Shown here piece after piece: positions 2,130 through 25,228 of a stretch of 25,228 nt of DNA. The notes below the pieces were generated by a model. The model made no database searches. It saw nothing but the letters and a program-made list of their open reading frames with translations, and was not told where the DNA came from. The stretch lies in the IMG/VR virus record IMGVR_UViG_3300029787_005119, positions 1 to 25,228 of that record; one strand, written 5' to 3'. The DNA is from a virus. Positions within the stretch are counted from its first letter, which is position 1. Each line of letters begins with the position of its first letter. A program made the translations under genes and the position numbers.

Positions 2130-2884
2130 TGAGTAAAAAGAAAATTGTAGTAACTCTAAGTGGTGGTATGGATTCTGCTGTTTTGCTTCATAAAGCAGCT
2201 AAAGAAGCAGATGAAGTGTTTACTATTACTTTTGATTACGGTCAACGACATAGCCGTGAGTTAGATAATATATTAGATCAATTGTTTAATGCGAAAAAAC
2301 ACTTTGAAAATGTTAAATTTTATAATACGAGACTCGATACTAAATTTATTAAAGATATAGCTCCTACTTCCTCAATAACTAATGATGATATTGAAACTCC
2401 TAATGTAAATGATATGATGGGCGAGGCTCAGCCTAAATCATATGTACCTTTTCGAAACTTAATGTTTCTAAGTATGATATGTTCTCATGCCGAGGCTGTT
2501 AAGGCAGATGAAGTTTGGTATGGTGCAGCACAAGCTGATAGTTTAGCTGGATATTGGGATGGTTCAGAAGAGTTTGTCGAGCAAGTTAATAAGGTAACAG
2601 CCTTAAACCGTGAAAATAGAATTACTGTTAAAGCGCCTCTTATTGAACTTTCAAAAAAAGAGATAATTGAAGAAGGTATTGAGCTTGGTGTTGATTTTAG
2701 TTTAACTTATACTTGTTATTCCGGAAAATATCCTTGCGATGCAGAGTCAGCTAGTAGTGCTTTACGCTTAAGAGGCTTTTTAGACGCAGGTTATAAAGAT
2801 CCGCTACAGTATATACAGCAAGAGAAGCTAGAAAAGATATATCTAGATAATAACTGTAAAAATATTAATACCCGTGACGATTAA
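2129..2884 (+). CDS. queC: QueC-like 7-cyano-7-deazaguanine (preQ0) synthase with a degenerate zinc site
   Basis: QueC converts 7-carboxy-7-deazaguanine to preQ0 with ATP and ammonia. preQ0 feeds queuosine tRNA synthesis or, in several phages, 7-deazaguanine modification of genomic DNA. The PP-loop SGGMDS is at residues 11-16, followed by TFDYGQRH (34-41), YVPFRN (105-110) and a TYTCYSG segment, all typical. Length (251 aa) is slightly above the usual 220-235. The oddity is the zinc site: the family carries four Cys, the last three as CxxCxxC. Here C196 and C203 remain, but the next two positions are E206 and S209. The gene is coupled to the 55-residue ORF upstream, and its last 20 bases overlap the convergent 2865 gene. 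No FolE, QueD, QueE or DpdA partner is in the window. Confidence 0.88.
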   Translation: MSKKKIVVTLSGGMDSAVLLHKAAKEADEVFTITFDYGQRHSRELDNILDQLFNAKKHFENVKFYNTRLDTKFIKDIAPTSSITNDDIETPNVNDMMGEAQPKSYVPFRNLMFLSMICSHAEAVKADEVWYGAAQADSLAGYWDGSEEFVEQVNKVTALNRENRITVKAPLIELSKKEIIEEGIELGVDFSLTYTCYSGKYPCDAESASSALRLRGFLDAGYKDPLQYIQQEKLEKIYLDNNCKNINTRDD

Positions 2885-4169
2885 GTCTTTCTTGGCGGTA
2901 AAAATTTTGTAGTTCTGCTCTTCTCTGATCTTGCATTCTACGAGCAACTTCTTGAGGTGATAGAGCTGATTGTTCCTCTTCTTCTTTTCTTTCATCCCCT
3001 CTTTTTAGCTGAATATAAGAAGAAACATTAAATTGCTCATCTTCCTCTTCTTCATCATCTAAAGGTTCCATCTCACCCATTTGATCATCAGCAGGCGCTT
3101 CTTCTGGAGCATATTGATCGTTATCATCCTCTTCGTCATCATCGTCGTCTCCAAATACAGCTTCTGCACGAGCATTTTCATATTCAGAAACTTCGCCATC
3201 TTTATCTAAATCAGCTTTTTTAGGATCAATTTCATCTTCATACTCTACTGTTGTAACTTTTTTAACTTTAGATTTAGGAAATTTACCACCAATAATAGAT
3301 TCAATATCGTCATTATCTATATCATACTCAGGTGGCATATTTTCTTCTGGATGTTCATGGGTAAGAAAATCATCTAACTCTTCTTCTCCTTCTGCACCAC
3401 CCATATCAGCTAAACTTTTTTCTATAACTTCAAGCATTCCTTTTAGGTACTCTTCAGCAACATGATATTCTTCGTATTGATGCATATAATCTAAAAATTT
3501 CTTAAATTTAGCAACAGTATCAATCTTACCGCCTACGTTAGTAATATTAGCAATTATTTTTGGATCTATATCTTCAGTCTGTGCCATCTGGTTTAGTACC
3601 TTAGCTAAAGAAGCTTTTAAGAGTAATTTTTCATCTTGGATATCAGCATCTTCACCTTTATCAACAGGAGCTGCTTTTACTGCATCCATAGTAGTTTTTT
3701 TAATTTCTTGTGCAGTTAAACCACTATACTCTTTTTTCTTATAACCTTCATCTTTTTTAGGTCTTACACCCTTTCCAGTTCTAAGAATCATCGCAACACG
3801 TAAAAATTGTGATACTCTATCTTCATCAGTTCCAGGAACATTTTCTGTTGCATAAGCATCAAACTCTTCTCCAAACTTTTCAAACTTCTCTGGACTATCA
3901 ATGGCTATCTGACCAACTAATGCATTAACATCTTTAGCTGATGGCTTCTTTTTACCCATATCTGGTACTAACTCAGGATGTTTTTCTTTTAAAAAATTAT
4001 AAAAGAAAATACGAGCATCTCTATATGGTAGCCCGATATTAAGTTTTTTCATCTTATTCATTACCGGTTTAAGAGTTTTAGAAATACTTTCTTCTATAAC
4101 ATCCTCTGACAGGTATTGATGTGTATCTTCAGTGATAAATTGTCTACTATTCCATGAGTCTAAATTCAT
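2865..4169 (-). CDS. Acidic probable late structural or prohead protein with an EF-hand loop
   Basis: This 434-residue protein has no recognised family. The first 250 residues are mixed helical. The region 255-400 is extremely acidic, with runs of Asp and Glu around 340-350 and 370-380, and the last 40 residues are helical and basic. Residues 320-331 form a textbook EF-hand calcium loop: Asp at loop positions 1, 3 and 5, Gly at 6, Val at 8, Glu at 12. The N-terminus carries FITE (11-14) and YLSE (19-22), both matching the (I/L)XE cleavage rule of T4-type prohead proteases. It lies alone on the minus strand among early genes, behind a T4-late-like AATAAATA motif 5 bases from its ATG. A prohead core, scaffold or internal head protein is the best guess. 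Confidence 0.75.
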   Translation of the reverse strand: MNLDSWNSRQFITEDTHQYLSEDVIEESISKTLKPVMNKMKKLNIGLPYRDARIFFYNFLKEKHPELVPDMGKKKPSAKDVNALVGQIAIDSPEKFEKFGEEFDAYATENVPGTDEDRVSQFLRVAMILRTGKGVRPKKDEGYKKKEYSGLTAQEIKKTTMDAVKAAPVDKGEDADIQDEKLLLKASLAKVLNQMAQTEDIDPKIIANITNVGGKIDTVAKFKKFLDYMHQYEEYHVAEEYLKGMLEVIEKSLADMGGAEGEEELDDFLTHEHPEENMPPEYDIDNDDIESIIGGKFPKSKVKKVTTVEYEDEIDPKKADLDKDGEVSEYENARAEAVFGDDDDDEEDDNDQYAPEEAPADDQMGEMEPLDDEEEEDEQFNVSSYIQLKRGDERKEEEEQSALSPQEVARRMQDQRRAELQNFYRQERLNRHGY

Positions 4170-13400: not shown

Positions 13401-13406
13401 ATACAT

Positions 13407-14021: not shown

Positions 14022-14023
14022 CC

Positions 14024-14051
14024 TTGATTTTAGTAAAATTTCATATAAAAT
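14024..14051 (+). promoter_or_regulatory. Promoter for the RmlD-like reductase gene (TTGATT-16-TAAAAT)
   Basis: TTGATT at 14024-14029, 16 bases, TAAAAT at 14046-14051, 6 bases, then ATG at 14058. The layout matches the promoter of the preceding gene, including the CCTTGATT context around the -35 box. A leaderless transcript is expected. Confidence 0.6.
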
Positions 14052-14057
14052 ATATAT

Positions 14058-14933
14058 ATGAATGTTTTAATTCTCGGTAAAGGGTACGTAGGTGGTCACC
14101 TTCAAAAGTATCTATCTAATCAGCAGACTGCAGATAATAATATTTTTTTTAAATCTAAAAATAATTTAGATTATACAGATTCAGAAATTCTTTATAATTT
14201 TTGTTTATCGAAAGATATTGATACTATAGTTAATACTTCTGGTTATACCGGATCACCTAATGTGGATGGTTGTGAAGATAACAAAGAAGATTGTTTTTAT
14301 TATAATGTTAATGTACCTGTTATAATAGAAGGCGTCTGTAAGTCTTTAGATATAAATTTAATACACATTGGGTCTGGCTGTATATACAGCGGGTACGATA
14401 AACAATATACAGAACAAGATACTCCTGATTTTGGTATATACGATCAAGATTCAAGTTTTTATAGTAAAACAAAACATATATCCGAATTAATGTTAGATAC
14501 AAATTTTACAAATATTATTCGGATTAGAATGCCAATTGAACATAAATTAACTGATAAAAATCTTCTTACGAAGCTTATAAAGTACCCTAACTTAATTGAT
14601 TTTGCAAATAGTAAAACTGATATGAATCGGTTATGTCAATTTATATCTATTGTTATTAATAACTTCAAAGCCGGTATCTATAATGCCGTTCATAGTAAAC
14701 CGTTAACGACTAGAGAAGTTGTAAAAATTCTTAAAGATTATGATCTTGAAAATAAAGATTGGAAGTTTGTAAATTATGAAACTCTTAATATAAAATGTAA
14801 CCGCAGTAATTGTGTTATAACTAATCAAAAAGCAAAAGATGACTTTAATTTTGATTTTGGAGATGAAGAATATTACTTAAAACTAAATGCGTCTTTAATA
14901 AAAAAGGAAAAAGAATGGCTAAAGCAGAAATAG
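14058..14933 (+). CDS. NAD(P)-dependent sugar reductase/epimerase, RmlD-like SDR
   Basis: This 291-residue extended short-chain dehydrogenase has the nucleotide loop GKGYVG at residues 7-12 (GxGxxG) and the catalytic YxxxK pair Y135 and K139 in FYSKTK. HIGSGCIYSG (103-112) is the usual strand with the catalytic Ser/Thr region. The pattern is that of RmlD-type enzymes, which reduce the 4-keto group of NDP-6-deoxy-4-keto sugars; the short N-terminal strand and lack of a GalE-type insertion support this. With the RmlB-like dehydratase encoded at 16246, it could make a 6-deoxy sugar nucleotide. Its end overlaps the next gene by 19 bases. Confidence 0.8.
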   Translation: MNVLILGKGYVGGHLQKYLSNQQTADNNIFFKSKNNLDYTDSEILYNFCLSKDIDTIVNTSGYTGSPNVDGCEDNKEDCFYYNVNVPVIIEGVCKSLDINLIHIGSGCIYSGYDKQYTEQDTPDFGIYDQDSSFYSKTKHISELMLDTNFTNIIRIRMPIEHKLTDKNLLTKLIKYPNLIDFANSKTDMNRLCQFISIVINNFKAGIYNAVHSKPLTTREVVKILKDYDLENKDWKFVNYETLNIKCNRSNCVITNQKAKDDFNFDFGDEEYYLKLNASLIKKEKEWLKQK

Positions 14934-15361
14934 TAGGTTTTACAGCAGGTAATTTTGATCTTCTACACCCTGGCTACATATATACGTTTGAAGAAGCAAA
15001 ACGACATTGTGATAAATTTTTAGTGTTTTTACAAAAAGATCCTTCTGCAACAAGGTATACAAAATATAGGCCAGTTATACCATACTATGAACGATATAAA
15101 ACTCTAATAGCAATTCAATATATTGACGAAGTCTACATGTATCAAACAGAGGAAGAATTAATAGAACTTATTAAGTTTTTTAAACCAGATATTAGAATAT
15201 TAGGAGAAGATTATATTGGTAAATCTTTCACCGGTGATGATTTACCTCCTAAAGTAATTTATACTACTCGATCGCATGAATGGTCAACAACAAAAATAAA
15301 AGACCTTATAACAAAACAAACAATTAAACAAAATCCGGATATTTTAAATGATAGTAAATAA
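14915..15361 (+). CDS. Cytidylyltransferase-like nucleotidyltransferase with an altered HxGH motif
   Basis: This 148-residue protein is the third cytidylyltransferase-type domain in the window. The opening GFTAGNFDLLHPGYIYTF aligns with the GxFDxxHxGH region, but the signature reads H18-P-G-Y21, so the second His is Tyr. The rest is typical: YRPVIPYYERYKTLIAIQYIDEV, then RILGEDYIGKSFTG and the closing WSTTKIKDL, equivalent to the ISTTxI motif. It may still be active, since a subgroup with HPGY may exist, or it may bind nucleotides without catalysis. A good ribosome binding site (AAGGA at 14904-14908) lies 6 bases before the ATG inside the previous gene. Its stop overlaps the next ATG by 14 bases. 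Confidence 0.8.
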   Translation: MAKAEIVGFTAGNFDLLHPGYIYTFEEAKRHCDKFLVFLQKDPSATRYTKYRPVIPYYERYKTLIAIQYIDEVYMYQTEEELIELIKFFKPDIRILGEDYIGKSFTGDDLPPKVIYTTRSHEWSTTKIKDLITKQTIKQNPDILNDSK

Positions 15362-16256
15362 GAAAATTATTGTTACCGGTGGGAACGGTTTTATAGGTTC
15401 TCATATTGTAGATAAATTAGCTGATTCTAATGAAGTGCATGTTATTGATAATCTTTCTAGTGATGCAGCGGATAAACACTACTACAATAAACGGGCAATA
15501 TACCATAAAGCAGATATAGCAGATTATGAAGCTATAAAAAATATTTTTGAAGGAATAGATTACGTCTTTCATTTAGCAGCTGAGGCTAGAATACAACCTA
15601 CTTTAAATAATCCTGTACTTGCTGCCAAGAGTAATATGCTTGGAACATGTACAGTTTTACAATGTAGTAGAGAGGCTAATGTTAAAAGAGTTATATATAG
15701 CTCTACCTCATCTGCGTATGGTTTAAAAAATAAACCTCCTTTGCAAGAAGAAATGGATAATGATTGTCTTAATCCATATTCAGTTACTAAAACTGGTGGT
15801 GAAGAGTTATGTAAAATGTTTACTAAGCTCTTTAATCTTGAAACTGTAATATTAAGATACTTTAATGTATATGGAGATAGGTCTCCACTAAAAGGTCAAT
15901 ATGCCCCCGTTGTAGGTATCTTTTTAAGACAGACGATTAATAATGAACCAATGACAATTGTCGGTGATGGTAATCAAAGAAGAGATTTTACTCATGTTCA
16001 AGATATTGTTGAGGCTAATATAAGAGCCGCCGCCAGTGAAAATAAGAAGATTTTAGGTAATACTATAAACGTTGGTACGGGTATTAATTATTCTATTTTA
16101 GAAGTAGCTAATATGATTGGTAGTATGACAGTACATTTACCTGAACGAAAAGCCGAGGCTAGTATAACGCTTGCTAACAATAAAAGACTAAAGGAGTGGT
16201 TAAATTTTATACCAACTGACAAACTTAAAGAATATATTACTGGTTATGGAAGATAG
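15348..16256 (+). CDS. NDP-sugar epimerase, GalE-like SDR
   Basis: This 302-residue extended SDR has GGNGFIG (residues 11-17) for NAD binding, FHLAAEAR (74-81), the catalytic Ser/Thr region YSSTSSAYG (117-125) and the YxxxK pair Y144 and K148 in PYSVTK. FNVYGDR and the DFTHVQD motif follow as in UDP-hexose 4-epimerases. GalE-like enzymes oxidise and re-reduce C4 of a UDP-sugar; UDP-GlcNAc, UDP-glucuronate or heptose variants cannot be told apart here. It overlaps both neighbours (14 bases upstream, 11 downstream), so the three sugar genes from 14915 to 17205 form one coupled unit. Confidence 0.86.
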   Translation: MIVNKKIIVTGGNGFIGSHIVDKLADSNEVHVIDNLSSDAADKHYYNKRAIYHKADIADYEAIKNIFEGIDYVFHLAAEARIQPTLNNPVLAAKSNMLGTCTVLQCSREANVKRVIYSSTSSAYGLKNKPPLQEEMDNDCLNPYSVTKTGGEELCKMFTKLFNLETVILRYFNVYGDRSPLKGQYAPVVGIFLRQTINNEPMTIVGDGNQRRDFTHVQDIVEANIRAAASENKKILGNTINVGTGINYSILEVANMIGSMTVHLPERKAEASITLANNKRLKEWLNFIPTDKLKEYITGYGR

Positions 16257-17205
16257 ACGAATTTTAGTAACTGGTGGTTATGGATTTATTGGTGGAAATT
16301 TTATTAGATTTCTTAGAGATAACTTTCCTAGCAGCTATATAGTTAACATTGATAAGAATAGCTATGCCTCTAATAAAGAATATGTAAAAGGTCTTTGTGA
16401 TGAGGAGCATGCTGTTGATCTTAAAGATTCTTTATTTCTTGAAAATGTCTTTCTTAAAAATGATAAGTTTGATTATATTTTTCATTTTGCCGCTGAATCT
16501 CATGTAGATAATAGTATTACTGGCCCGTCAGTTTTTGTCGAATCTAATGTATTAGGTACTCAAAATCTTCTAGAATGTTATAGAAAAATTAATAATGGAT
16601 ACGGTAAATTTGTACATATCTCCACTGATGAAGTGTATGGTCACTTAGGTTGGAATGACCCTTCATTTACTGAAAAGACCCCATTGTCCCCAAGGTCTCC
16701 ATATGCTGCTTCAAAGGCTTCTAGCGACTTAATGTGTCTATCATATATAGAAACTTTTAACTTAGATATTAGTATAACACGGTGCTGTAATAACTTTGGA
16801 CCCAATCAACATAGTGAAAAATTTATACCTACAATTATTAATTCTCTTAAAGATAATAAGAAGATACCAGTGTACGGTGAAGGGTCAAATATAAGAGAAT
16901 GGATACATGTCCATGATCATAATCTTGCAGTCTGGACTGTAGCTACTACTGGTAAGCCTGGTGTATATAATATAGGTTCTGGAAACGAACTAACTAATCT
17001 TGAACTGGTAGATATTCTTTGTAAAATTTTTGATAAAGATATGGACCATTGCGTAAGATTTGTTGAGGATAGACTTGGGCATGACTTTAGATATAGTATA
17101 GACAGTAGTAAAATTAGAAATGAATTAATATGGGAACCATTATATAATGATATTGAAAAGGAACTCAGAGAATATGTCGAATACTACTTACAAAAAGGCA
17201 GGTAA
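16246..17205 (+). CDS. rmlB: dTDP-glucose 4,6-dehydratase-like protein (RmlB type)
   Basis: This 319-residue SDR has GGYGFIG (residues 10-16), FAAESHVDNSI (81-91), the dehydratase triad T127-D128-E129 in STDEVYG, Y153 and K157 in YAASKAS, and the substrate-binding RCCNNFGPNQ (179-188) followed by EKFIPTIINSL. The Asp-Glu pair after Thr separates 4,6-dehydratases from epimerases, and the CNNxGPxQ segment is characteristic of RmlB. It should convert dTDP-glucose (or another NDP-hexose) to the 4-keto-6-deoxy form, the branch point to rhamnose, fucosamine and 4-amino-4,6-dideoxy sugars. The gene is in frame-overlap with the epimerase upstream and the small gene downstream. The match to RmlB is strong; the exact nucleotide is not proven. 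Confidence 0.88.
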   Translation: MEDRRILVTGGYGFIGGNFIRFLRDNFPSSYIVNIDKNSYASNKEYVKGLCDEEHAVDLKDSLFLENVFLKNDKFDYIFHFAAESHVDNSITGPSVFVESNVLGTQNLLECYRKINNGYGKFVHISTDEVYGHLGWNDPSFTEKTPLSPRSPYAASKASSDLMCLSYIETFNLDISITRCCNNFGPNQHSEKFIPTIINSLKDNKKIPVYGEGSNIREWIHVHDHNLAVWTVATTGKPGVYNIGSGNELTNLELVDILCKIFDKDMDHCVRFVEDRLGHDFRYSIDSSKIRNELIWEPLYNDIEKELREYVEYYLQKGR

Positions 17206-17434
17206 ACTTTTTGCTGTACATCATGGTGATTACGCCGGTCAAATGTTTGCCTTAGTAACGATTGAGGAACACAATTATAATTTTCTATCAATGCCTGAAA
17301 TGAAAAATATCTCAGTTTCGGTTAAGGATTTTGATCGCGGTATAAAAAAAGAAATTATACAATTTGTAGAAGCATTACCTAAGGATATTTTTAAAGTAAT
17401 TAAAGCACAATATGAAAAAAATTCTAACAATTGA
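17174..17434 (+). CDS. Hypothetical protein, 86 residues
   Basis: No family is recognised. It is a small alpha/beta protein with a beta-rich first half (KLFAVHHGDYAGQMFALVTI) and an amphipathic C-terminal helix ending KAQYEKNSNN. The start at 17174 is chosen because it shortens the overlap with rmlB to 32 bases and has AAGGAA upstream at 17158-17163; an in-frame ATG at 17147 would add nine residues encoded inside rmlB. It overlaps the RNase H gene by 23 bases, suggesting coupling to it. The conserved-looking position between sugar genes and RNase H gives no functional hint. Confidence 0.65.
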   Translation: MSNTTYKKAGKLFAVHHGDYAGQMFALVTIEEHNYNFLSMPEMKNISVSVKDFDRGIKKEIIQFVEALPKDIFKVIKAQYEKNSNN

Positions 17435-18257
17435 TGGTAATAATTTAGTACACCGGGTATACTGGGTTGCTAATAATATGGCTAAAAAGTCTGATAACTT
17501 TCATGTCTATATGTTTCTTAATGCGGTAAAAAGCTATACTGATATGTATAAAGCAGATACAGTTATATGTGTATGGGATGAAAAACCTGATTATAGAAAA
17601 AATAAACGTAGAGATCTTTTAGAAGAATATAAAGGTAACAGAGATTATGATTCCAGTGTTCATGATAAAAATGAGCTTATTAAAGAACTTTTACAGCTTA
17701 TGGGTATACCCTCTATATACCCCCGTGACTATGAAGCTGATGATGTAATTGGCTTTATAGATGGTTATTTTTATGACGATGAGCATATAATTGTAACAGT
17801 AGACAAAGACCTATGTCAGCTTATCAGTGAGGATACTGTTGTATATGACCCTATTAGAAAATATGAAATTAATTTAGAAAATTTTACCGAGAAACTAAAG
17901 TATGACCCAGAGGATTTTATTAAGGTTAAAGCTTTACAAGGAGATAAAAGCGATAATATACCCGGGTTAAAAGGGTTCGGTAAAGTTAAAATTGGAAAAT
18001 TCTTAGATGGTGTTATAAGACTTACCGAGGAAGAAAACAAAATTTACACTCGTAATTTAAAATTAGTTACTCTTAGTAAAGATTTAGAGGAGGAAGACTA
18101 TGTTATTAAGCAACTTAAAAATTGTTCATTTAAATCAGATTTTACTGAATTTATTAGCCTTTGTAAAAAATGTTGGTTTACTAATATTTTAAAATATGAT
18201 CAAAAATGGTTTACTACCTTTTTTGAAAAAAATAGATTAATTGATTTACTATCTTAA
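17412..18257 (+). CDS. rnh: RNase H / 5'-3' exonuclease, T4 Rnh type (FEN family)
   Basis: This 281-residue flap-endonuclease-family protein removes RNA primers from lagging-strand fragments, as T4 RNase H (305 aa) does. Metal ligands stand in the usual order: D8 in TIDGNN, the EADD motif at 108-111, D131 and D133 in TVDKDLCQL, and G177-D178 and D181 in GDKSDNIPG, followed by the helix-hairpin-helix stretch GLKGFGKVKIGKFL. The N-terminal KKILTIDGNNLVHRVYW is typical of phage members. It sits with primase, helicase and SSB genes. It overlaps the small gene upstream by 23 bases and ends 8 bases before the next ATG. Confidence 0.92.
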   Translation: MKKILTIDGNNLVHRVYWVANNMAKKSDNFHVYMFLNAVKSYTDMYKADTVICVWDEKPDYRKNKRRDLLEEYKGNRDYDSSVHDKNELIKELLQLMGIPSIYPRDYEADDVIGFIDGYFYDDEHIIVTVDKDLCQLISEDTVVYDPIRKYEINLENFTEKLKYDPEDFIKVKALQGDKSDNIPGLKGFGKVKIGKFLDGVIRLTEEENKIYTRNLKLVTLSKDLEEEDYVIKQLKNCSFKSDFTEFISLCKKCWFTNILKYDQKWFTTFFEKNRLIDLLS

Positions 18258-18265
18258 ATAATTAT

Positions 18266-18532
18266 ATGAGCAATTACAATCCAAATGATTTTGTAAACCC
18301 TACACAAGTTAGATCTCCATATACTGGCGAGACTGCAACACCTTCATATAACAGCTTTGAACATCAAGGCAATACGTATCAACAGGCTGTTTTTTCTGAC
18401 CCAGTAACAGGCCATCTTATTAAAAAAGGTATAGTTAGTATTAAAGATAAAGAAGGTAAAATAGTGGCAGATTATAACTCCGTATTAGGTAGTTCAAATA
18501 ACGTTACACAAAGAAGTTTAGACAACCTTTAA
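18266..18532 (+). CDS. Hypothetical protein, 88 residues
   Basis: No family is recognised. The sequence is rich in Asn, Ser, Thr and Tyr, with several short beta segments (NTYQQAVFSD, GHLIKKGIVSIKDKEGKIVADY) and no hydrophobic span, which resembles small phage-encoded beta proteins. It lies 8 bases after RNase H and ends 36 bases before the promoter-driven primase gene. No clear promoter or ribosome binding site of its own is seen, so it is probably read from the RNase H transcript. Confidence 0.65.
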   Translation: MSNYNPNDFVNPTQVRSPYTGETATPSYNSFEHQGNTYQQAVFSDPVTGHLIKKGIVSIKDKEGKIVADYNSVLGSSNNVTQRSLDNL

Positions 18533-18534
18533 GA

Positions 18535-18562
18535 TTGATAATCAACTAATTTATACTATAAT
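18535..18562 (+). promoter_or_regulatory. Promoter for the primase gene (TTGATA-16-TATAAT)
   Basis: TTGATA at 18535-18540, a 16-base spacer and TATAAT at 18557-18562 are followed after 6 bases by the ATG at 18569. This is a near-perfect member of the leaderless promoter class; it occupies the whole intergenic gap. Confidence 0.75.
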
Positions 18563-18568
18563 AGGTGT

Positions 18569-19606
18569 ATGGTACCTATTCCCGAGCAATATGTAATAAA
18601 AGTCTTATACGAAAATATCTATAAGATTACATATAATAAATTTAATCATACTTATAATGGGTGCTGCCCTATCTGTAAAGAAGGCGATTCATGGGGCCGG
18701 AAAAAGCGTTTCTACTATATACCTAAAAAGGAATTAGCATATTGTCATAATTGTGGCTATAGTAAAAAGCCTTTACCGTTTATAGGCGACGTAACTAATA
18801 AACCTTTACAAGTTATTTTAAATGAAGTAAAGGAGCTCGATGTAGATATATTGCCAGTTATTGAAGAGCCGCAAGAAGAAAAAAAGATAGTTAATAATGA
18901 GACATTGCCGAAAGATTGTATAAACTTATCGGATAAAGCTCAATTAGAATTTTATAAAGATAATCCTGTAGTTACAATGGCTTTGCATTGTATAGAAACT
19001 AGGCGACTTAATAAAGGTATTAATAGTCCTAAAACATTTTACCTCTCGTTAAATGACCCCGTACATAAAAATAGATTAGTATTGCCTTTTTATGATGAAA
19101 ATAATAAAATTATATATTATCAGACAAGAGGGTTAATTAATAAAGATTTACATGATAGACCGAAATATCTTTCTAAGATGAATGCGGTAAGATGCCTGTA
19201 TGGTATTCATAATATTAATTCTAATATTGATAGTGTGTTTATATTTGAAGGCCCGATTGATAGTTATTTTGTAGAGAATGGGCTCGCTACTTGTGGAATA
19301 ACTGAGCGTAGTAGTAAAATATTTACTGCTCGTCAAAAAGACCAAATAAATGGACTAAGATTTTATGATAAAGTATTTGTATTGGATAATCAATATCAAG
19401 ATACTGCTGCTTTAAATAAGAGTATAATTTTAGCCGAAAATAATGAAAAGGTTTTTGTGTGGCCGAAAGAATTAAAGCAGTTTAAAGACTTTAATGATAT
19501 ATGCGTAGCTGGTAATAAAGACAAAATAAAACCCGAATTTATATTAAAAAATACTTATTCAGGTCTTAAAGCTAAGCTGTTGTTAACTGAAATTAAAAAT
19601 AATTAG
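18569..19606 (+). CDS. 61: DNA primase, T4 gp61 type
   Basis: gp61 makes the RNA primers for lagging-strand synthesis with the gp41 helicase. The N-terminal zinc ribbon has C33 and C36 (CPIC), then C59 and C62 (CHNC). The TOPRIM core follows: the catalytic Glu E227 in FIFEGPIDSYF and D273 in VFVLDNQYQD. The second acidic motif lacks the usual DxD spacing, a feature I recall as shared with T4 gp61. Length is 345 residues against 342 in T4. It has its own promoter and is the last plus-strand gene before the convergent minus-strand cluster. The assignment is strong. Confidence 0.9.
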   Translation: MVPIPEQYVIKVLYENIYKITYNKFNHTYNGCCPICKEGDSWGRKKRFYYIPKKELAYCHNCGYSKKPLPFIGDVTNKPLQVILNEVKELDVDILPVIEEPQEEKKIVNNETLPKDCINLSDKAQLEFYKDNPVVTMALHCIETRRLNKGINSPKTFYLSLNDPVHKNRLVLPFYDENNKIIYYQTRGLINKDLHDRPKYLSKMNAVRCLYGIHNINSNIDSVFIFEGPIDSYFVENGLATCGITERSSKIFTARQKDQINGLRFYDKVFVLDNQYQDTAALNKSIILAENNEKVFVWPKELKQFKDFNDICVAGNKDKIKPEFILKNTYSGLKAKLLLTEIKNN

Positions 19607-19644
19607 CTATGATAATCTGTATTATCTCGGAACTCAAGCTCCTC

Positions 19645-19890
19645 TTACGCATCTACTGTTAACGCGTCAACTGTTACATCATCGTAATCGTACTCTTCAT
19701 CGATGCCAGCCTTAACAGCTTCAGCCTTAGCAGCTGTGCTATATGCTCCAATAATTTTAAACTTACCACCCCAGCCATCTTCAACATGAGCTTTAACAAT
19801 GTATACTTCTTTCATACTATTATCATATGCACCGTCTTCACCTACTATTTTAGTATAGGCTTCAAAAATTAAGTTTTTGTCTTTATTCAT
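19645..19890 (-). CDS. Small acidic protein with capsid-targeting-like N-terminus, 81 residues
   Basis: The protein starts MNKDKNLIFEA. LIFE followed by Ala at residues 7-11 fits the (I/L)XE rule of T4-type prohead proteases, with Glu at residue 10, the same position as in the targeting peptide of T4 internal protein III (as I recall it, MKTYQEFIAE then A). The body has a compact alpha/beta look (KEVYIVKAHVEDGWGGKFKI) and an acidic tail. The start at 19890 is chosen because it aligns with the paralogous N-termini; a GTG at 19902 would add four residues overlapping the upstream gene. It is the last gene of the minus-strand cluster, one base after its neighbour. Likely packaged in the head or part of the prohead core; function unknown. 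Confidence 0.75.
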   Translation of the reverse strand: MNKDKNLIFEAYTKIVGEDGAYDNSMKEVYIVKAHVEDGWGGKFKIIGAYSTAAKAEAVKAGIDEEYDYDDVTVDALTVDA

Positions 19891-19891
19891 A

Positions 19892-20146
19892 TTAAAAATC
19901 ACCCTCTATAAGTGAATCGTATGCTTTTCTTAATTCAGGGTCATTAACATAAGACTCTTGCTTTAATACATCAACAGCATCGAATACCTTTTCAAGTATT
20001 TGATTTATCTTATCTTCTAGTTCTGGTGCTTCTCCTTTAAGTTGTTCAAGTAAATTTACAGCACCTTCTGACGATTCTTCATTTTCACTGGGAGTCTTGT
20101 TAAATTGAGCATAAGCTTCAAAAATTAAATCTTGATCTGTTTTCAT
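19892..20146 (-). CDS. Small acidic protein with capsid-targeting-like N-terminus, 84 residues
   Basis: The protein starts MKTDQDLIFEA, which matches the T4 internal protein III targeting peptide in length and in the MKT-x-Q start, with the LIFE site again at residues 7-10 and Ala following. The remainder is helical and acidic (EQLKGEAPELEDKINQILEKV), resembling small prohead core proteins such as T4 gp67 in size and charge but without clear identity. It has its own late-type promoter: AATAAATA 5 bases before the ATG. After cleavage the mature protein would begin at Ala11. Homology to any named core protein is not claimed. Confidence 0.75.
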   Translation of the reverse strand: MKTDQDLIFEAYAQFNKTPSENEESSEGAVNLLEQLKGEAPELEDKINQILEKVFDAVDVLKQESYVNDPELRKAYDSLIEGDF

Positions 20147-20151
20147 ACAAT

Positions 20152-20159
20152 TATTTATT
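20152..20159 (-). promoter_or_regulatory. T4-late-like promoter (AATAAATA) for the 20146 gene
   Basis: On the minus strand AATAAATA ends 5 bases before the ATG at 20146, the same octamer and spacing as upstream of the 4169 gene. No -35 element is evident. It lies in the 32-base gap after the 20179-20400 gene, the only real gap inside the cluster. Confidence 0.6.
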
Positions 20160-20178
20160 AACTGAGATAAAAAAATAA

Positions 20179-20400
20179 TTAAATTTGTCTATCTATTGGT
20201 TGTGCTGCAGCGCGTGAACCGCCACCTGTACGAGTACCAGTCGACATAAAATCTACATACTGGTTTAAAGTCTTAAGCTCACTGGCAATATCTTGTAAAG
20301 CTTTAACCATATCATTAGCCACTGAAGGGTCATCTATTTGTTCATTAATAGTTTTTTTACCACTAACGTAGCTTTCAAATATTTTTGTCATATCGTCCAT
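20179..20400 (-). CDS. Small protein with capsid-targeting-like N-terminus, 73 residues
   Basis: The protein starts MDDMTKIFESY, a shortened version of the shared N-terminus, with IFE at residues 7-9 and Ser following instead of Ala. The middle is a long helix (NDMVKALQDIASELKTLNQYV), and the tail is Gly/Arg-rich with Thr (STGTRTGGGSRAAAQPIDRQI), which could bind nucleic acid or be disordered. It follows the 208-residue gene after 2 bases with no visible ribosome binding site, so it is probably coupled. No known family is recognised; a minor head or core protein is the best guess. Confidence 0.7.
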   Translation of the reverse strand: MDDMTKIFESYVSGKKTINEQIDDPSVANDMVKALQDIASELKTLNQYVDFMSTGTRTGGGSRAAAQPIDRQI

Positions 20401-20402
20401 AA

Positions 20403-21029
20403 TTATATAATATATTTAGTTGTGTAACTTACGCTTTCTTTAGCAATTTCTTTTTCAGCATCCCCATAAGCATCTCTTCCGAGGGCGTCTCTTTCATGAG
20501 CAGTTAAGGACATTCCATCTTTTAATCTTTCTTCAGCAGCTTTAATTAAAGCATCGCCAGCTGTTCCCATTCCTTTAACTTTCTTTAAAAGCTCATCATC
20601 TGAAAGGTCACCAGTCTTATCTTCATCATCCTGACTCTTCTTTCTTAATTTACCGGTAACAGGGCATCTTTCTGCCTCTTCTTCCGGGTCGTCTTCATAA
20701 TGATCTGCAACTGCTCTTGCATGTTCTTGACCTGCTCTTTCTCTCTCTTTTTTCTCAATATCTACAGGTTCTTCTGGTTCGCCTTCTTCATTAGATTCCA
20801 TGTCTTCAGTATCTATAGCACTAGGACGTTCGCCTTTTTCGTAATAATCATCACGTTCTTTAGTAATATAAGCTCTTACACTTTCTGTATCATCAAGTTT
20901 TAAGTCTTTTATAATATCATCTACATCATCGCCCATTTCAATGGCAGTAGCTATATCTTTCATTTTACTTTCTTCGAGAGTTTTAACTTGATAAGCTTCG
21001 AATATTAAACTAGTATCTTTATCAAACAT
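20403..21029 (-). CDS. Acidic protein with capsid-targeting-like N-terminus, 208 residues
   Basis: The protein starts MFDKDTSLIFEAY, with LIFE at residues 8-11 followed by Ala. A second (I/L)XE site, LEE, follows at about 18-20. The central 80-150 region is highly charged and acidic (many Glu and Asp, with a CPVTGKLRKK segment), and the C-terminal part is helical. This composition is typical of prohead scaffold/core or internal proteins cleaved during head maturation. A good ribosome binding site (AAGGA) precedes the ATG, in the 8-base gap after the 141-residue gene, so it is translated from that gene's late transcript. No family is recognised. Confidence 0.75.
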   Translation of the reverse strand: MFDKDTSLIFEAYQVKTLEESKMKDIATAIEMGDDVDDIIKDLKLDDTESVRAYITKERDDYYEKGERPSAIDTEDMESNEEGEPEEPVDIEKKERERAGQEHARAVADHYEDDPEEEAERCPVTGKLRKKSQDDEDKTGDLSDDELLKKVKGMGTAGDALIKAAEERLKDGMSLTAHERDALGRDAYGDAEKEIAKESVSYTTKYII

Positions 21030-21037
21030 TATATTCC

Positions 21038-21463
21038 TTAGTTGTATCTATATTTTGGATCATTAGCACCTGCTAAATAACCTTTTAAAATTTCACTTAA
21101 CGACATTACTTCCATTGCAACTCTTGCCATTTTCTTTGTTTCGGCATTAGCTATGCTATTATAGATTGTATCTGACTCTGCAGAATTAATTTTTGTTGTA
21201 ATACTGCTTTCGGTACCGTTAACATATTCAGCAAATTTATCCATTTCAGTAACCCAGCTTTTAAGCTCATCGTACATTTGTCTTTGCTGATCAGTCATAG
21301 TTGTTGATGTTGCAACGTCTTCTACATCAGCACCAAGGTCGTCGCTGGACATGGTATCTAATTCTGCATCAGCAGCTTCTGTATCGGTAACGTCAATATC
21401 TACGTCAAGCTCATCGTCTTGTTCACTTAACACCTTTTTAAATCTTTTACTGTAGATGGTCAT
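21038..21463 (-). CDS. Acidic probable prohead/virion protein, 141 residues
   Basis: The protein starts MTIYSKRFKKVLSEQDDE. LSE at residues 12-14 fits the (I/L)XE prohead-protease rule, and the leading basic stretch is followed by a very acidic region to about residue 50. The rest is helical (MTDQQRQMYDELKSWVTEMDKFAEYV). An upstream in-frame ATG at 21742 would extend it by 93 residues but would cover the divergent 21498 gene and its promoter; 21463 is chosen because a CATAAATA late motif ends 5 bases before it. T4 gp68, a prohead core protein, is also 141 residues, but no sequence match is claimed. It is the first gene of the minus-strand late operon. Confidence 0.72.
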   Translation of the reverse strand: MTIYSKRFKKVLSEQDDELDVDIDVTDTEAADAELDTMSSDDLGADVEDVATSTTMTDQQRQMYDELKSWVTEMDKFAEYVNGTESSITTKINSAESDTIYNSIANAETKKMARVAMEVMSLSEILKGYLAGANDPKYRYN

Positions 21464-21468
21464 ATTTA

Positions 21469-21476
21469 TATTTATG
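21469..21476 (-). promoter_or_regulatory. T4-late-like promoter (CATAAATA) for the minus-strand cluster
   Basis: On the minus strand CATAAATA ends 5 bases before the ATG at 21463. It is the divergent partner of the TATAAATA that serves the 21498 gene; both fit within the 34-base gap between the two start codons. Transcription from here would cover the 141- and 208-residue genes and probably those beyond. Confidence 0.62.
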
Positions 21477-21484
21477 CTGCGACG

Positions 21485-21492
21485 TATAAATA
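21485..21492 (+). promoter_or_regulatory. T4 late promoter consensus (TATAAATA) for the 21498 gene
   Basis: TATAAATA, identical to the T4 late promoter consensus, ends 5 bases before the ATG at 21498. In T4 the octamer covers about -13 to -6, which places the transcription start on the A of this ATG. No -35 element is seen. Confidence 0.7.
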
Positions 21493-21497
21493 TATAC

Positions 21498-21866
21498 ATG
21501 AAGCAACGATTATTTGAAGATTCCGAAATGCCGGATGTTAGTAGACAGGTAACTGGCATAGGGACTAATACAATGGATGCCGGGGCAACCACTCTTGGAG
21601 ACTTTACGCGCCGCGAAAACGGACTACCTAATACACATGATTCTGGAGTTGCATACCCATTAGATAGTATTGATGATATTGCTGCTGATGCTTTTTTGAA
21701 TATAAGCAATATGCAGCGAGACTTAGAGATAGCAAAAAGCAATCCGGTCTTAAAAAGCGATAAGCATCAAAAAATAATAGATAAGTTAGAATTAAATCTT
21801 AAAGATATTACTAAATCTTTACTTGATTTTGATAAAACCTTATCTATAATTAAAGGTAATGAATAG
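21498..21866 (+). CDS. Probable late head protein with prohead-protease-like N-terminus, 122 residues
   Basis: The protein starts MKQRLFEDSE; LFE at residues 5-7 fits the (I/L)XE cleavage rule. A polar, Gly/Thr-rich stretch follows (TGIGTNTMDAGATTLGDF), then a helical C-terminal half with several amphipathic helices. The start at 21498 is chosen because a perfect late promoter ends 5 bases before it; the in-frame ATGs at 21456 and 21474 would place codons inside both late promoters. Its end overlaps the next gene by 8 bases. No family is recognised; a virion or prohead component is inferred from the promoter and N-terminus. Confidence 0.7.
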   Translation: MKQRLFEDSEMPDVSRQVTGIGTNTMDAGATTLGDFTRRENGLPNTHDSGVAYPLDSIDDIAADAFLNISNMQRDLEIAKSNPVLKSDKHQKIIDKLELNLKDITKSLLDFDKTLSIIKGNE

Positions 21867-22248
21867 TATTCTTAAGGTTTTAGCTTCTTTTGGATTAACC
21901 ATTGGATTGAGTACACTTATAGCTCTTTTTTTCTCTAGTGAACTCTTCTGGTTAATATGGACTACAGCAACTATTTTGCAATTTGTTGCCTTTTATTTTT
22001 ATAATCGTATCTATACAAATAGATTAATTAAAGATTTAGAAAATATAAAAGTTGATCAATTAAAAGAAGCCAATAGAAACATGGTACAAGTTAAATGTCC
22101 ATGCGATGAAAATTTACAGCAAGCTGTTGATTTTAGATTTGATCAGGTAAATATTTTTGACTGTGTAAAATGTGGTAAACCAGTTAAATGCGATATAAAT
22201 GTAACAACAGTAATGGTGACTGAACCTATGTACTTTGACGATAAATGA
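21859..22248 (+). CDS. Two-helix membrane protein with a cytosolic Cys cluster
   Basis: This 129-residue protein has two hydrophobic segments, about residues 4-25 and 29-49, separated by a short SSE turn, so it should be a hairpin in the inner membrane. A charged helix (53-75) follows, and then Cys residues at 80, 82, 102, 105 and 111 (CPC, later CVKC), which resemble a small zinc ribbon with uneven spacing. No family is recognised. It overlaps the upstream late gene by 8 bases and the downstream gene by 4 (ATGA), so it is probably expressed in the same unit. Lysis, superinfection exclusion or membrane tethering of a phage complex are all possible and undecided. Confidence 0.7.
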   Translation: MNSILKVLASFGLTIGLSTLIALFFSSELFWLIWTTATILQFVAFYFYNRIYTNRLIKDLENIKVDQLKEANRNMVQVKCPCDENLQQAVDFRFDQVNIFDCVKCGKPVKCDINVTTVMVTEPMYFDDK

Positions 22249-22649
22249 AAGATTTAGAATCCATAACTAAGGAAGTGGCACCGAATTTTACAGCTCCTTT
22301 ACCAGTAGAAAAAAAATTAGAGATAAAAGCATTGCTTAATATTTTAGATAGTACTTTATCTGTTGATAAACGAGATTTATTAGCAACTGGTATTGCATCT
22401 CGTGGATGGAAAGATCTATCAGTATTAAAGGTATTAAGAGAATGTCTTTTTTTAGAAATAGAAGATCTGCAAGTATCTAAAAATACTGAAGATGCTAACG
22501 TTCGCCTTGCAACAAATCAAATTAAGCGTAATTTAAAAAGTCAAGTTGATACTATTATTAATATTTTAGAATCTTCAACCAATAAGAAAGAAAATTTTTA
22601 TTACTTGATAGGTGTTGTGCTCGCTAGTTTAGAAAAAATGGAACAGTAA
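22245..22649 (+). CDS. Hypothetical helical protein, 134 residues
   Basis: No family is recognised. The protein looks fully helical, with repeated Leu-rich amphipathic segments (KALLNILDSTLSVDKRDLL, LKVLRECLFLEIEDL, VDTIINILES, YYLIGVVLASLEKM) and no membrane span. Its ATG overlaps the stop of the membrane protein (ATGA), pointing to coupled translation and perhaps a joint role. It ends 29 bases before the next ATG, where a TATAAT lies. Confidence 0.68.
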   Translation: MKDLESITKEVAPNFTAPLPVEKKLEIKALLNILDSTLSVDKRDLLATGIASRGWKDLSVLKVLRECLFLEIEDLQVSKNTEDANVRLATNQIKRNLKSQVDTIINILESSTNKKENFYYLIGVVLASLEKMEQ

Positions 22650-22656
22650 TATTATA

Positions 22657-22672
22657 GGAACTATAGTATAAT
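22657..22672 (+). promoter_or_regulatory. GGAAC-5-TATAAT promoter for the 22679 gene
   Basis: TATAAT at 22667-22672 stands 6 bases before the ATG at 22679. No TTGNNN -35 box lies at 16-18 bases, unlike the other members. Instead GGAAC at 22657-22661 is 5 bases before the -10 box, as at 1941 and 10412. It may be a variant class using an upstream element in place of the -35. Confidence 0.5.
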
Positions 22673-22678
22673 TTAAGT

Positions 22679-22942
22679 ATGTCTAATAAAGAGAATAATA
22701 AAAAAGTAGATAAGTTAGAGGATACGCAAGATTTAGATTATCTTGCCCGATTTGCTTGTTTAATGTATGGTGTTAATGTAGCTGCAGATTTTGCCGAAAA
22801 ACGGGGTATTAATACTGAAAAGAATAATTCATGGATTAAGCCAATAGTTTTTCAGAAATATATTGATGAAAGATACGAGGATATGAAATTTAATATTAAA
22901 CAATCACTAGAGGGTAAGGAGAATGAAATACATTCCTGGTAG
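22679..22942 (+). CDS. Hypothetical protein, 87 residues
   Basis: No family is recognised. The N-terminal 20 residues are charged (MSNKENNKKVDKLEDTQDL), followed by a helical segment with YLARFACLMYGVNVAADFAEKRG and a mixed C-terminal half ending with ENEIHSW. The protein is soluble. It has its own TATAAT promoter 6 bases upstream of the ATG, and it overlaps the next gene by 20 bases. Confidence 0.65.
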   Translation: MSNKENNKKVDKLEDTQDLDYLARFACLMYGVNVAADFAEKRGINTEKNNSWIKPIVFQKYIDERYEDMKFNIKQSLEGKENEIHSW

Positions 22943-23144
22943 TACTTTTTTAAATAGAACACAACGGCATAGAAAATACTTTAAAAGAGGTATACCGTAT
23001 AGTTTAAAAATAATTCGAACCTTACCAGATTCGTCTAGTTTAAAATATGTCTTTACTGATCAAACAACTGGTGACGATACTGATATTATTTTTGAAGATG
23101 CAAGGCAAGCAGATAAATTTTTAGAACAATTTTTAACTAAATAA
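22923..23144 (+). CDS. Hypothetical small protein, 73 residues
   Basis: No family is recognised. The first 30 residues are basic (TFLNRTQRHRKYFKRG), and the rest alternates beta-like and acidic segments (LKYVFTDQTTGDDTDIIFED) with a final helix. It could bind nucleic acid, but no motif proves it. AAGGAG ends one base before the ATG, which is closer than a normal ribosome binding site, so coupling to the overlapping upstream gene (20 bases) is more likely to drive translation. One base separates it from the oxygenase-like gene. Confidence 0.62.
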   Translation: MKYIPGSTFLNRTQRHRKYFKRGIPYSLKIIRTLPDSSSLKYVFTDQTTGDDTDIIFEDARQADKFLEQFLTK

Positions 23145-23145
23145 C

Positions 23146-23697
23146 ATGAAATACGAAAACATAGATGAAAAGTTTGTTTGGAAAGTGCCTACTAAACCGC
23201 TGGATATAGAAAAATTAGTAAAAGTTAATAGCGAAATGCGTTATTACCACTTTGACGTACAAGAGATTAATGTACAAGATCTTTGTAAACAAAATGACTT
23301 TTTTGATTGGCTATTTAAAAAGCATCCATATCGGGCTGGTCTTGTTAAAATGGACCCGAATACACTATATGATTGGCATGTAGATCACCTTGAAGGCAGA
23401 ACCATGAGGGGTGTATGTATTAATGCCGTAGTTACAGATTCACCTTCCTTAGTTATGTTTTCTGAAAATATAGAAAAACTTGCAAGCCAAGGGGGTAACG
23501 AATGGCAAGCTGATATTGTACCTTTTACATACGAGAAAAACGAAGTTTATATATTCAATCCAACACAAAGCCATTCAGTTTATAATTTTGAAAATACAAG
23601 ATACTTATTTAGTTTACAGTTTGGTGAAAATGTGCATAGATTAACCTATGAACAACTCGTAAATGAAGTAAAGACAGAATATGTCGCAGGAAAGTAA
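23146..23697 (+). CDS. 2OG-Fe(II) oxygenase-like protein, paralogue 1
   Basis: This 183-residue protein has the double-stranded beta-helix pattern of iron/2-oxoglutarate oxygenases. The HxD pair is H78 and D80 in YDWHVDH, the distal His is H143 in QSHSVYN, and R152 in TRYLFSLQF is well placed to bind 2-oxoglutarate. KKHPYRAGLVKMDPNTLYDW precedes the HxD. Asp/Asn hydroxylase-like or cupin-like binding roles are alternatives; the substrate is unknown. It has a close tandem paralogue just downstream, overlapping it by 17 bases. The HxD...H...R layout is visible, but no named family is certain. Confidence 0.68.
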   Translation: MKYENIDEKFVWKVPTKPLDIEKLVKVNSEMRYYHFDVQEINVQDLCKQNDFFDWLFKKHPYRAGLVKMDPNTLYDWHVDHLEGRTMRGVCINAVVTDSPSLVMFSENIEKLASQGGNEWQADIVPFTYEKNEVYIFNPTQSHSVYNFENTRYLFSLQFGENVHRLTYEQLVNEVKTEYVAGK

Positions 23698-24202
23698 ATA
23701 TTTTTTAAAAATTACAGATGTAGATATTAATTTATCTAATTTACAACCTACATCTGAGTCACATAATTATAATGGGTTTTATATATACCCTATGATTGAT
23801 GATAGCTCAGAAGAAAAATTTATTAACGATAATGAGTTTTTATGTTGGCTAAATCAACGCCACCCGTTAAAATGTGCTTTAATTAAAATGAATCCTTTTC
23901 AGACTTATAATTGGCATAAGGACGTAAGACGAGGAGTTTGTATAAATGTTTTATTGGATCATAAAAATTCATATACGTTATTTTCAGATGATGTATTAGA
24001 AGGTTCAAACGGACTTTATGGCAATATAACAAAAATGAATTATGAACTAAATAAATTCTATTTGTTTAATAATCAAATACCTCATTCAGTATATAATTAT
24101 GAAGGGGAGAGGGTACTTTTTAGTATAGAGTTTTTAAATGAAGATAAGCACCAACTTACCTATGAACAGCTAAAAAATGAGATAGACGAGTATTTTCTGT
24201 GA
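23681..24202 (+). CDS. 2OG-Fe(II) oxygenase-like protein, paralogue 2
   Basis: This 173-residue protein is a paralogue of the preceding one. Shared features are RHPLKCALIKMNPFQTYNW, the H79-x-D81 pair, RRGVCIN, the distal H135 in PHSVYNYEGE, R144 in ERVLFSIEF and the closing QLTYEQLKNEI. It lacks the longer loop between the HxD and RGVCIN that paralogue 1 has (the HLEGRTM stretch), so the active-site surroundings differ. The start at 23681 overlaps paralogue 1 by 17 bases; no ribosome binding site is clear. It is the last plus-strand gene in the window. The two proteins probably arose by tandem duplication and may act on related substrates or form a heterodimer. Confidence 0.66.
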   Translation: MSQESKYFLKITDVDINLSNLQPTSESHNYNGFYIYPMIDDSSEEKFINDNEFLCWLNQRHPLKCALIKMNPFQTYNWHKDVRRGVCINVLLDHKNSYTLFSDDVLEGSNGLYGNITKMNYELNKFYLFNNQIPHSVYNYEGERVLFSIEFLNEDKHQLTYEQLKNEIDEYFL

Positions 24203-24289
24203 TTTTTATGAAAAACGGTGCAGGAGATTAAGGGAGACCCCATTTGTTTTGTGTTAGGTATATATTGGTATACCTAAAAAACCACGGTT
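24203..24289. other. Convergent intergenic gap with hairpins
   Basis: This 87-base gap separates the plus-strand oxygenase-like genes from a minus-strand virion gene. It holds no plausible gene. It contains one clear inverted repeat (24254-24277) and, beside the minus-strand stop, a short AAAACC-GT-GGTTTT palindrome followed on the minus strand by a T run, which could end transcription weakly in that direction. Confidence 0.5.
24254..24277. terminator. Hairpin, possible terminator between convergent genes
   Basis: TTAGGTATA at 24254-24262 pairs perfectly over 9 bases with TATACCTAA at 24269-24277 around a 6-base loop. On the plus strand it is followed by an A run rather than a T run, and on the minus strand the T run comes before it, so it does not fit a standard intrinsic terminator in either direction. 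The location between converging genes still suggests a role in ending transcription or stabilising message ends. Confidence 0.3.
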
Positions 24290-25228
24290 TTAATAGTAAT
24301 CCCCGTATACATCAGTGTCATTCTGAGACATATCAAATACATCAGTTTTACTAAATGTATCAACATTGTACTCATCATACTCATCTTTTTTAAGATCTGT
24401 TTGTGGATTAGTAAATCCGGATAATCTACCTGCAAAGCTATCTTCATAAATTTGCTGATTACCAGAGATTTGAGTAACGAAATTAGATGTCCAAACCTGA
24501 CTAGATAATGTACCTACTATTGCACCTGTTGGTTTAAATGAAGGTTGACTACCAGTACTGAAGAATGTATCTGGCCAAACTGCTAGCCAGGGGTAAGGTG
24601 CAGAATCTGATGATGAAGAACCTTGATTAACACCTTGCTTAAGCAGATCCCAACTCGCTGTAGCACTAGAGGTACCTAGATTAGTACCGCCTGCTTTTTG
24701 AAAAATATAATCATCTCCATCACTATTTCTTGTCCACTTTAAAGTACCGTTATCATTATTTAAAATATATGTTCCCTCTATTTCCGGTACTCCGTAGTCT
24801 AAGAAATCAAAAGTATTAACAGCTGTGGTTGCTTGGAATGGTGTATTTTTACCATCTGATGATGATAGATATTGAAACTGTAAATATGGAAGTTTCTTCC
24901 TATACGGGTCAAATTTGTCTATATCAATAGTTTCTTCATTAATAAATTCATTTGAATAACCATCAGAAAAGATTCTACCTACACCATATGCTGTAACTCC
25001 ATCATAACGAGTTTGAGAATATCTCTCACCAGTTATTATACTAACAGTAGTATCTTGATAATATGGCCCAGTATCTACATATATCTTACTATTAACTAAT
25101 GCGCCGCCTGTAAATGGTATACCAGGCTCGAAGCTATAATCATAACGTTTAGCCTTAATTAAAAATACATAATGGCCAGCTAAAGGATTAATTTGAGATA
25201 TATCTTCGTCTAACTTTTCAGTTATTTC
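24290..25228 (-). CDS. Probable virion structural protein, 5' part outside the window
   Basis: A frame open from the window edge runs 312 residues on the minus strand to a TAA at 24290-24292. The protein is rich in Tyr, Ser, Thr, Asp and Gly with many short beta segments, such as GHYVFLIKAKRYDYSF, PFTGGALVNSKIYVDTGPYY and PYPWLAVWPDTFFSTG, and a Ser-rich loop (QGSSSSDS). The end is acidic and Tyr-rich (NDTDVYGDYY). This composition is typical of phage tail, baseplate or neck proteins. No family is recognised. It converges on the 2OG-oxygenase-like genes across an 87-base gap with hairpins. The full length and start cannot be seen. Confidence 0.65.
   Translation of the reverse strand, partial: EITEKLDEDISQINPLAGHYVFLIKAKRYDYSFEPGIPFTGGALVNSKIYVDTGPYYQDTTVSIITGERYSQTRYDGVTAYGVGRIFSDGYSNEFINEETIDIDKFDPYRKKLPYLQFQYLSSSDGKNTPFQATTAVNTFDFLDYGVPEIEGTYILNNDNGTLKWTRNSDGDDYIFQKAGGTNLGTSSATASWDLLKQGVNQGSSSSDSAPYPWLAVWPDTFFSTGSQPSFKPTGAIVGTLSSQVWTSNFVTQISGNQQIYEDSFAGRLSGFTNPQTDLKKDEYDEYNVDTFSKTDVFDMSQNDTDVYGDYY

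Follow-up and report, generated by a model that had tools for sequence, protein, structure and literature searches.

The internal proteins IPI, IPII and IPIII of phage T4 carry an N-terminal peptide of about 10 residues, in which an (I/L)xE motif precedes a small residue (the ipII and ipIII products start with MKTYQEFIAEA). In IPIII, residues 4 and 7 matter for targeting, and residues 8 and 10 for cutting (PMC9026906). That the internal proteins of the T-even phages are diverse, with only the tag being conserved, is already known (PMC3012670), the bodies found behind the tag being unrelated (PMC3012670, PMC9026906). For the most part, the T4 internal proteins have been regarded as peculiar to the T-even phages.

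An (I/L)xE motif is also present near the N-terminus of T4 gp67, gp68 and gp22, gp21 processing being established for the T4 proteins only. Head proteins of the giant phages SPN3US and phiKZ bear N-terminal propeptides, which are thought to aid packaging and are cut by the prohead protease; unlike the short tags described below, they are mostly much longer (about 80-127 residues) and have an AxE/SxE motif (PMC5694885).

As for cyanophages, 52 proteins were found in purified particles of S-CREM2 by mass spectrometry (PMC10665884), and the authors of the S-CREM2 and S-SCSM1 studies regarded the particle enzymes as possible carry-over, leaving the question open. No attribution of the presence of these enzymes to a leader was found in the relevant sections of the cyanophage papers, and no report of capsid-targeting sequences in marine T4-like phages or cyanophages in the open-licence literature that was searched.

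Here, a locus is described in which neighbouring, dissimilar proteins share a short leader. It is likely (with a probability of roughly 0.82) that this leader is a capsid-targeting propeptide cut by a gp21-type protease; packaging, cleavage and delivery are inferred, as there are no virion data.

A shared leader on neighbouring genes

The window, i.e. the whole stretch of DNA that was analysed, is the complete IMG/VR record IMGVR_UViG_3300029787_005119 (25,228 bases). It comes from a T4-like myovirus, a distant marine relative of phage T4 without close isolate. A nucleotide search against 50,697 phage records (isolates) gave no matches, and neither did protein searches with ORFs A and D against isolate phages; for UvsX, the nearest isolates, mostly cyanophages, are only 30-32% identical. 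The Far-T4 phages (PMC4360716) are one possible name for the clade, the assignment being untested. Judging by sequence and position, other ORFs of the window resemble a gp41-type helicase, a sliding clamp, a primase-like protein and sugar-nucleotide genes; the only one of the other ORFs to be checked by profile was gp32. Many sugar-nucleotide or cytidylyltransferase-like genes (by their look, epimerases, kinases and nucleotidyltransferases) lie amid the replication genes at 5746-17205.

The leaders of the tagged ORFs, their predicted cut sites and the other features discussed are collected in table 1.

Table 1. Tagged genes, predicted leaders and late promoter boxes (window positions), and leader-bearing virion proteins of S-CREM2 (positions in OR473000). 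The arrow marks the predicted cut.
Feature	Position	Strand	Description
ORF A	19645..19890	-	81 aa; leader MNKDKNLIFE↓AYTKIV; body matches DUF7336 (Pfam PF24024)
ORF B	19892..20146	-	84 aa; leader MKTDQDLIFE↓AYAQFN; body helical, acidic
ORF C	20179..20400	-	73 aa; leader MDDMTKIFE↓SYVSGK
ORF D	20403..21029	-	208 aa; leader MFDKDTSLIFE↓AYQVKT; strongly acidic (net charge -26)
ORF E	21038..21463	-	First gene of operon E-D-C-B-A; leader MTIYSKRFKKVLSE↓Q; net charge -19
ORF F	21498..21866	+	Divergent gene; leader MKQRLFE↓D
ORF G	2865..4169	-	434 aa; leader MNLDSWNSRQFITE↓D; net charge -45
Predicted capsid-targeting leader, ORF A	19861..19890	-	Residues 1-10
Predicted capsid-targeting leader, ORF B	20117..20146	-	Residues 1-10
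Predicted capsid-targeting leader, ORF C	20374..20400	-	Residues 1-9
Predicted capsid-targeting leader, ORF D	20997..21029	-	Residues 1-11
T4 late promoter box TATAAATA	21463..21470	-	At E start
Box CATAAATA	21469-21476	-	Overlaps minus-strand TATAAATA; end 6 nt from ATG of E
T4 late promoter box TATAAATA	21485..21492	+	6 nt from ATG of F
S-CREM2 Cas9 homologue	7704-10313		OR473000
S-CREM2 SAM hydrolase	3837-5081		OR473000
S-CREM2 kinase	10579-12846		OR473000
S-CREM2 cytidylyltransferase	124608-125468		OR473000

The initial annotation had claimed that four neighbouring proteins (19645-21029) share an IFE start and little else, with the Glu at residue 10 in two of them. All of this held: the leader is present on ORFs A-D, with coordinates and minus strand confirmed, their bodies have no detectable similarity to one another, and the Glu is residue 10 in A and B (9 in C, 11 in D). 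The related leaders on E, F and G had been missed. Compared with T4 IPIII, (I/L)xE is kept; the tag departs from it at residue 4, with Asp in place of Tyr, and the cargo is not basic but acidic.

ORF A (for which a GTG is present upstream, the relatives beginning at the ATG) matches DUF7336 above the Pfam cut-off (E 1e-6), the only such match among ORFs A-G. No homology to the IPI, IPII or IPIII families of T4 was found. AlphaFold2 models of A and B, built from two and four sequences, had mean pLDDT of 65 and 61, too poor for fold searches, and phrog_38, tried as a guessed family, was uninformative. The start of gp32 (10434-11303), MSNITNTMFES, was considered as a tag and rejected; since relatives have MFDS, its MFES is probably not a cleavage site.

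The leaders of A and B have D4/L7 where T4 has Y4/F7, the Leu at residue 7 being still hydrophobic. T4 gp22, gp24 and gp68 are also without Y4/F7, which, therefore, does not define all targeting peptides. Furthermore, the mature parts of T4 IPI-III are near-neutral to basic, whereas the bodies of the clade are acidic and modular and, unlike in T4, occur as many variants in one genomic slot of a very distant clade. Because their bodies are unrelated and acidic, and because of the Asp at residue 4, A-D are not members of the T4 internal protein families; the likely inference from the sequences is that the tag works like the T4 capsid-targeting sequence, on proteins that are not themselves T4 internal proteins.

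Conservation of the leader in the slot

Relatives were retrieved with the helicase, E and terminase as queries, and the slot was defined as the interval that separates the primase-like gene from E, only relatives with a readable, non-empty slot being considered. Such slots contain one to four minus-strand ORFs. The motif [ILM]xE is present at residues 5-17 in 32/32 distinct slot ORFs, LIFE being its form in nearly all of them, and in 24% of other ORFs (binomial P about 1e-20, an overstatement because the leaders are related by descent), and is followed by A (21), S (6), R (3), Q or K. Among 33 sequences, the residues L, I, F and E are kept with synonymous differences in their codons, so that the conservation shown here is at the protein level, with selection keeping the peptide and not the DNA alone. 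In distant relatives the slot proteins are absent and E is kept, with leaders such as MSTFQKKFLKILEA, MSLYQKRFKKFLSEQ and MSIFKSQFSKFLTEE.

Across six related contigs, the pattern [FYLIWM][LI]xE[AS], which was refined after inspection of the data, peaks at residues 6-15, with 22 ORFs observed and 2.5 expected. In a single 185-kb genome the count of the plain motif was not significant (10 vs 5.5, shuffle maximum 13); the strength of the signal lies in the slot, and not in a genome-wide excess.

Exchange of bodies behind the leader

When bodies were compared by Blast with the leaders removed, exchange of domains became apparent. The body of ORF C (49 aa, 92%) corresponds to residues 144-192, the end of the D homologue, in L028/L045, where the N-terminal part of ORF D (77% over 123 aa) precedes the C-type body. 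In L052 the leader in front of the ORF B body (79% over 66 aa) is MNTTETDLIFERY, and in L092 a match (62% over 69 aa) has leader MNNKTDINSIFEAY; a body homologous to that of ORF A stands behind leader MKNKTDINLIFES in L029/L032. One cargo is found with two leaders, namely MKTDQDLIFEAY in L006 and MKTFDKLYSSLMEG in G001 (61% over 79 aa), the latter being of the T4-like MKTF...LMEG type, unlike the LIFE leader in L006. Two neighbours in L032 are identical over their first 29 residues and have different bodies thereafter. The slot proteins and protein G have in common acidic linkers of the YAPEEAPADDQ type, the C-terminal acidic linker of ORF G (NDQYAPEEAPADDQ) being also found in slot proteins of relatives. 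Thus, the leader is the constant part and the cargo is exchangeable, and the leader can also give way to a different one of T4-like shape. As far as can be judged from the sequences, the slot appears to be a standard, exchangeable cargo position, in which the leader is kept and the proteins behind it are swapped.

A gp21-type protease and its sites in gp23

A gp21-type protease gene is absent from the 25-kb window, which says little since the window is a fragment. It is present in G017, whose terminase is 71% identical to that of L028, a close relative of the window. Together with gp23, G017 encodes a Peptidase_S77/gp21 homologue above the Pfam cut-off, labelled head maturation protease in PHROGs, which aligns with T4 gp21 through GELNHP and the SSR motif. 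A scan of IMG/VR based on this protease yielded 327 relatives, in which the gp23 N-termini (about 45 distinct) have an invariant ENQE(A/S/T)WC, followed by (L/I)-x-E plus A/G/S/D/N and then a hypervariable stretch, the site lying near the position of the T4 LTE↓A site. The leader motif, thus described, matches the gp23 site of the gp21-type protease of the clade, cutting itself being inferred.

The 185-kb G029 encodes the protease (17943), scaffold (18761), gp23 (19699) and a slot protein, MKTDQDLIFEAY (118668), the first twelve residues of which are the same as those of B; tag and protease, therefore, occur in one genome. The slot adjoins the primase-like gene and does not lie between the portal and protease genes; in G029, about 100 kb separate it from the protease. 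The initial annotation had taken the lack of a gp21-type protease from the genome as a result that would refute it, which is not borne out by these relatives, G029 included.

Late promoter boxes

Exact copies of TATAAATA number two in the window, against 9.8 expected in shuffles, and both lie, in opposite directions, within the short stretch that separates the divergent genes E and F, with none elsewhere in the window. Over the window and five relatives, there is a sharp peak of the box at 6 nt before the ATG (21/44 near-start cases); it mostly precedes structural, tagged or unknown genes, and not those of gp32, UvsX or the helicase. On the basis of this placement, late expression is predicted for the operon E-D-C-B-A, a timing that suits head proteins; the predicted late expression and the gp21-type protease of the clade are further likenesses to the T4 internal proteins.

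As a separate observation, many late genes have TATAAATA at a distance of exactly 6 nt ahead of their ATG (21463-21492; G001, G002, G015, G017, G018). From this distance and the T4 spacing, transcripts are predicted to start on the A of the ATG, giving leaderless late mRNAs, of which no report for T4-like phages was found in the literature search.

Leaders on cyanophage virion proteins

Particle data from another phage are a proxy in this respect. All 219 annotated genes of S-CREM2 were translated and scored with a strict pattern, derived from T4 alone ([FY]xxF[IL]xE, first 16 residues), and with a relaxed one, widened after inspection of the list ([FYLW]xxF[ILMF]xE, first 32 residues). The relaxed leader is found in 6/28 non-structural or unknown virion proteins vs 1/167 undetected ones (Fisher P 3e-5, which is optimistic), and the strict one in 3/28 vs 0/167 (P 0.003; range 0.003-0.01 for stricter T4-derived motifs). 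Since the list had already been inspected when the relaxed pattern was settled on, more reliance can be placed on the narrower figure. The plain motif [ILM]xE[ASGQDN] was not significant in the S-CREM2 virion test, whereas the motif built on T4 residues 4, 7, 8 and 10 was, and most S-CREM2 virion proteins are without a leader.

The leader-bearing virion proteins of S-CREM2 are the SAM hydrolase (MKDFDSFLEE), a kinase (MKRFDAFLTE), the cytidylyltransferase (MKNFSSFLTEA), the Cas9 homologue (...LRFASFMAEA) and two unknowns. The cytidylyltransferase has been reported in virions of three isolates (S-CREM2, S-SZBM1 and S-SM1), starting with MRFRQFIIEA in S-SZBM1 and MKKFSAFLNEA in S-SM1; the homologue of P-SSM2, for which no virion data were considered, starts with MKSFSQFLTET. 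Among the S-SZBM1 virion proteins checked, only one is clearly tagged. Like the slot proteins, these virion enzymes of the Kyanoviridae (cytidylyltransferase/NMNAT, SAM hydrolase, APH/ChoK-like kinase and the S-CREM2 Cas9 homologue) carry leaders, here T4-IPIII-like; unlike them, they belong to recognised families and have an aromatic-type leader. The N-termini of the four named S-CREM2 proteins may point to true packaging and not to contamination, and a targeting leader is a simple alternative to carry-over for such enzymes.

Proposed mechanism and alternative explanations

In the preferred reading, a T4-type late promoter would drive late transcription of the operon E-D-C-B-A; the leader would bind the prohead core and bring each protein into the prohead; the gp21-type protease would cut after IFE, at the same kind of site as in gp23; and the freed acidic bodies would be retained in the head as internal proteins. 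The bodies would then probably enter the host together with the DNA, which is the least certain step and rests on analogy with the T4 internal proteins. The locus itself would be a cargo slot, the leader being kept while acidic linkers and small domains are swapped or fused. The weak points of this reading are the kinship of the leaders, the lack of particle data for the clade and the absence of a genome-wide excess in the 185-kb genome.

The initial annotation had also proposed that different cargo proteins bear one address tag for the prohead. This is supported by the protease, the gp23 sites, the exchange of bodies, the late promoter and the S-CREM2 correlation, whereas the presence of the proteins in particles and the cut after IFE are inferred for this phage, and the suggested delivery to the host with the DNA remains an inference that has not been shown.

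The main rival, which cannot be set aside and applies above all to D, E and G, holds that the tagged proteins are minor parts of the prohead core or scaffold, like T4 gp67 and gp68, being targeted, processed and then degraded or left in the head with no role in the host. In its favour, D, E and G match T4 gp67 and gp22 in acidity (-26, -19 and -45 vs -24 and -27), and the T4 core proteins, too, have their (I/L)xE near the N-terminus. Against it, even from one close relative to another the bodies are almost wholly replaced, and they are shuffled as modules, which sets them apart from structural core proteins; the slot lies outside the gp20-gp23 cluster and, in G029, far from gp21-gp23; and the tagged virion proteins of cyanophages include enzymes (SAM hydrolase, Cas9 homologue).

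According to a second rival, the leader would be common only through duplication and recombination of 5' ends, without any address function. Most leader codons are common to A and B, and the identical starts of the L032 neighbours are in line with such events, but the codons vary synonymously while the residues are kept, one cargo is found behind leaders sharing little beyond the gp21 motif, and different leaders of this kind are borne by E, F, G and the enzymes of cyanophages, which makes this explanation very improbable. Chance, finally, can draw on the frequency of short I/L-x-E motifs near N-termini (loose [ILM]xE at residues 5-17 in 24% of background ORFs) and on the non-significant excess in the 185-kb genome, but is practically ruled out by the slot test, with its 32/32 and LIFE in nearly all.

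Novelty and implications

The modular slot, its acidic cargo and the link to cyanophage particle enzymes appear to be new. A bolder reading than the capsid-targeting one given above, for which we see as much reason to hesitate as to believe, is that one head-loading system based on an address tag is general across the T4 superfamily; it would explain the cytidylyltransferase, SAM hydrolase, kinase and Cas9 homologue of cyanophages and, in the clade of the window, a combinatorial slot whose shuffled acidic domains would be injected and act on host targets.

Should the leader be an address tag here too, it would suffice to read the N-termini of the many unknown proteins of marine T4-like phages to predict which of them are carried in the particle. 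The slot would then list candidate first-minute effectors and anti-defence proteins, the distinction between true cargo and contaminant among cyanophage particle enzymes would come closer to being settled, and new tags would be at hand for loading proteins into phage heads.

Similar starts outside the slot

A second place for the LIFE leader is found in G029 at 102300-103667 (L236:2300-3667:-), where a 455-aa protein with the start MNKDTELIFEN and without PHROG match adjoins the homologue of protein G. Small unknown proteins whose starts resemble the tag (YLQEA, YLNEA, LLEA, LMEG, LINEA) form a second cluster in G001 (25548-33093) and G015 (16987-24641), which includes a fusion of DUF6267 with a cytidylyltransferase (632-665 aa). 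G001 30594-31208 and G015 18310-18864 encode the homologues MDNEANLIFTQYLNEA and MDNDANLIFEQY; in MDNEANLIFTQYLNEA the Glu of LIFE is missing and a second site, YLNE↓A, then follows, as if the cut site had moved.
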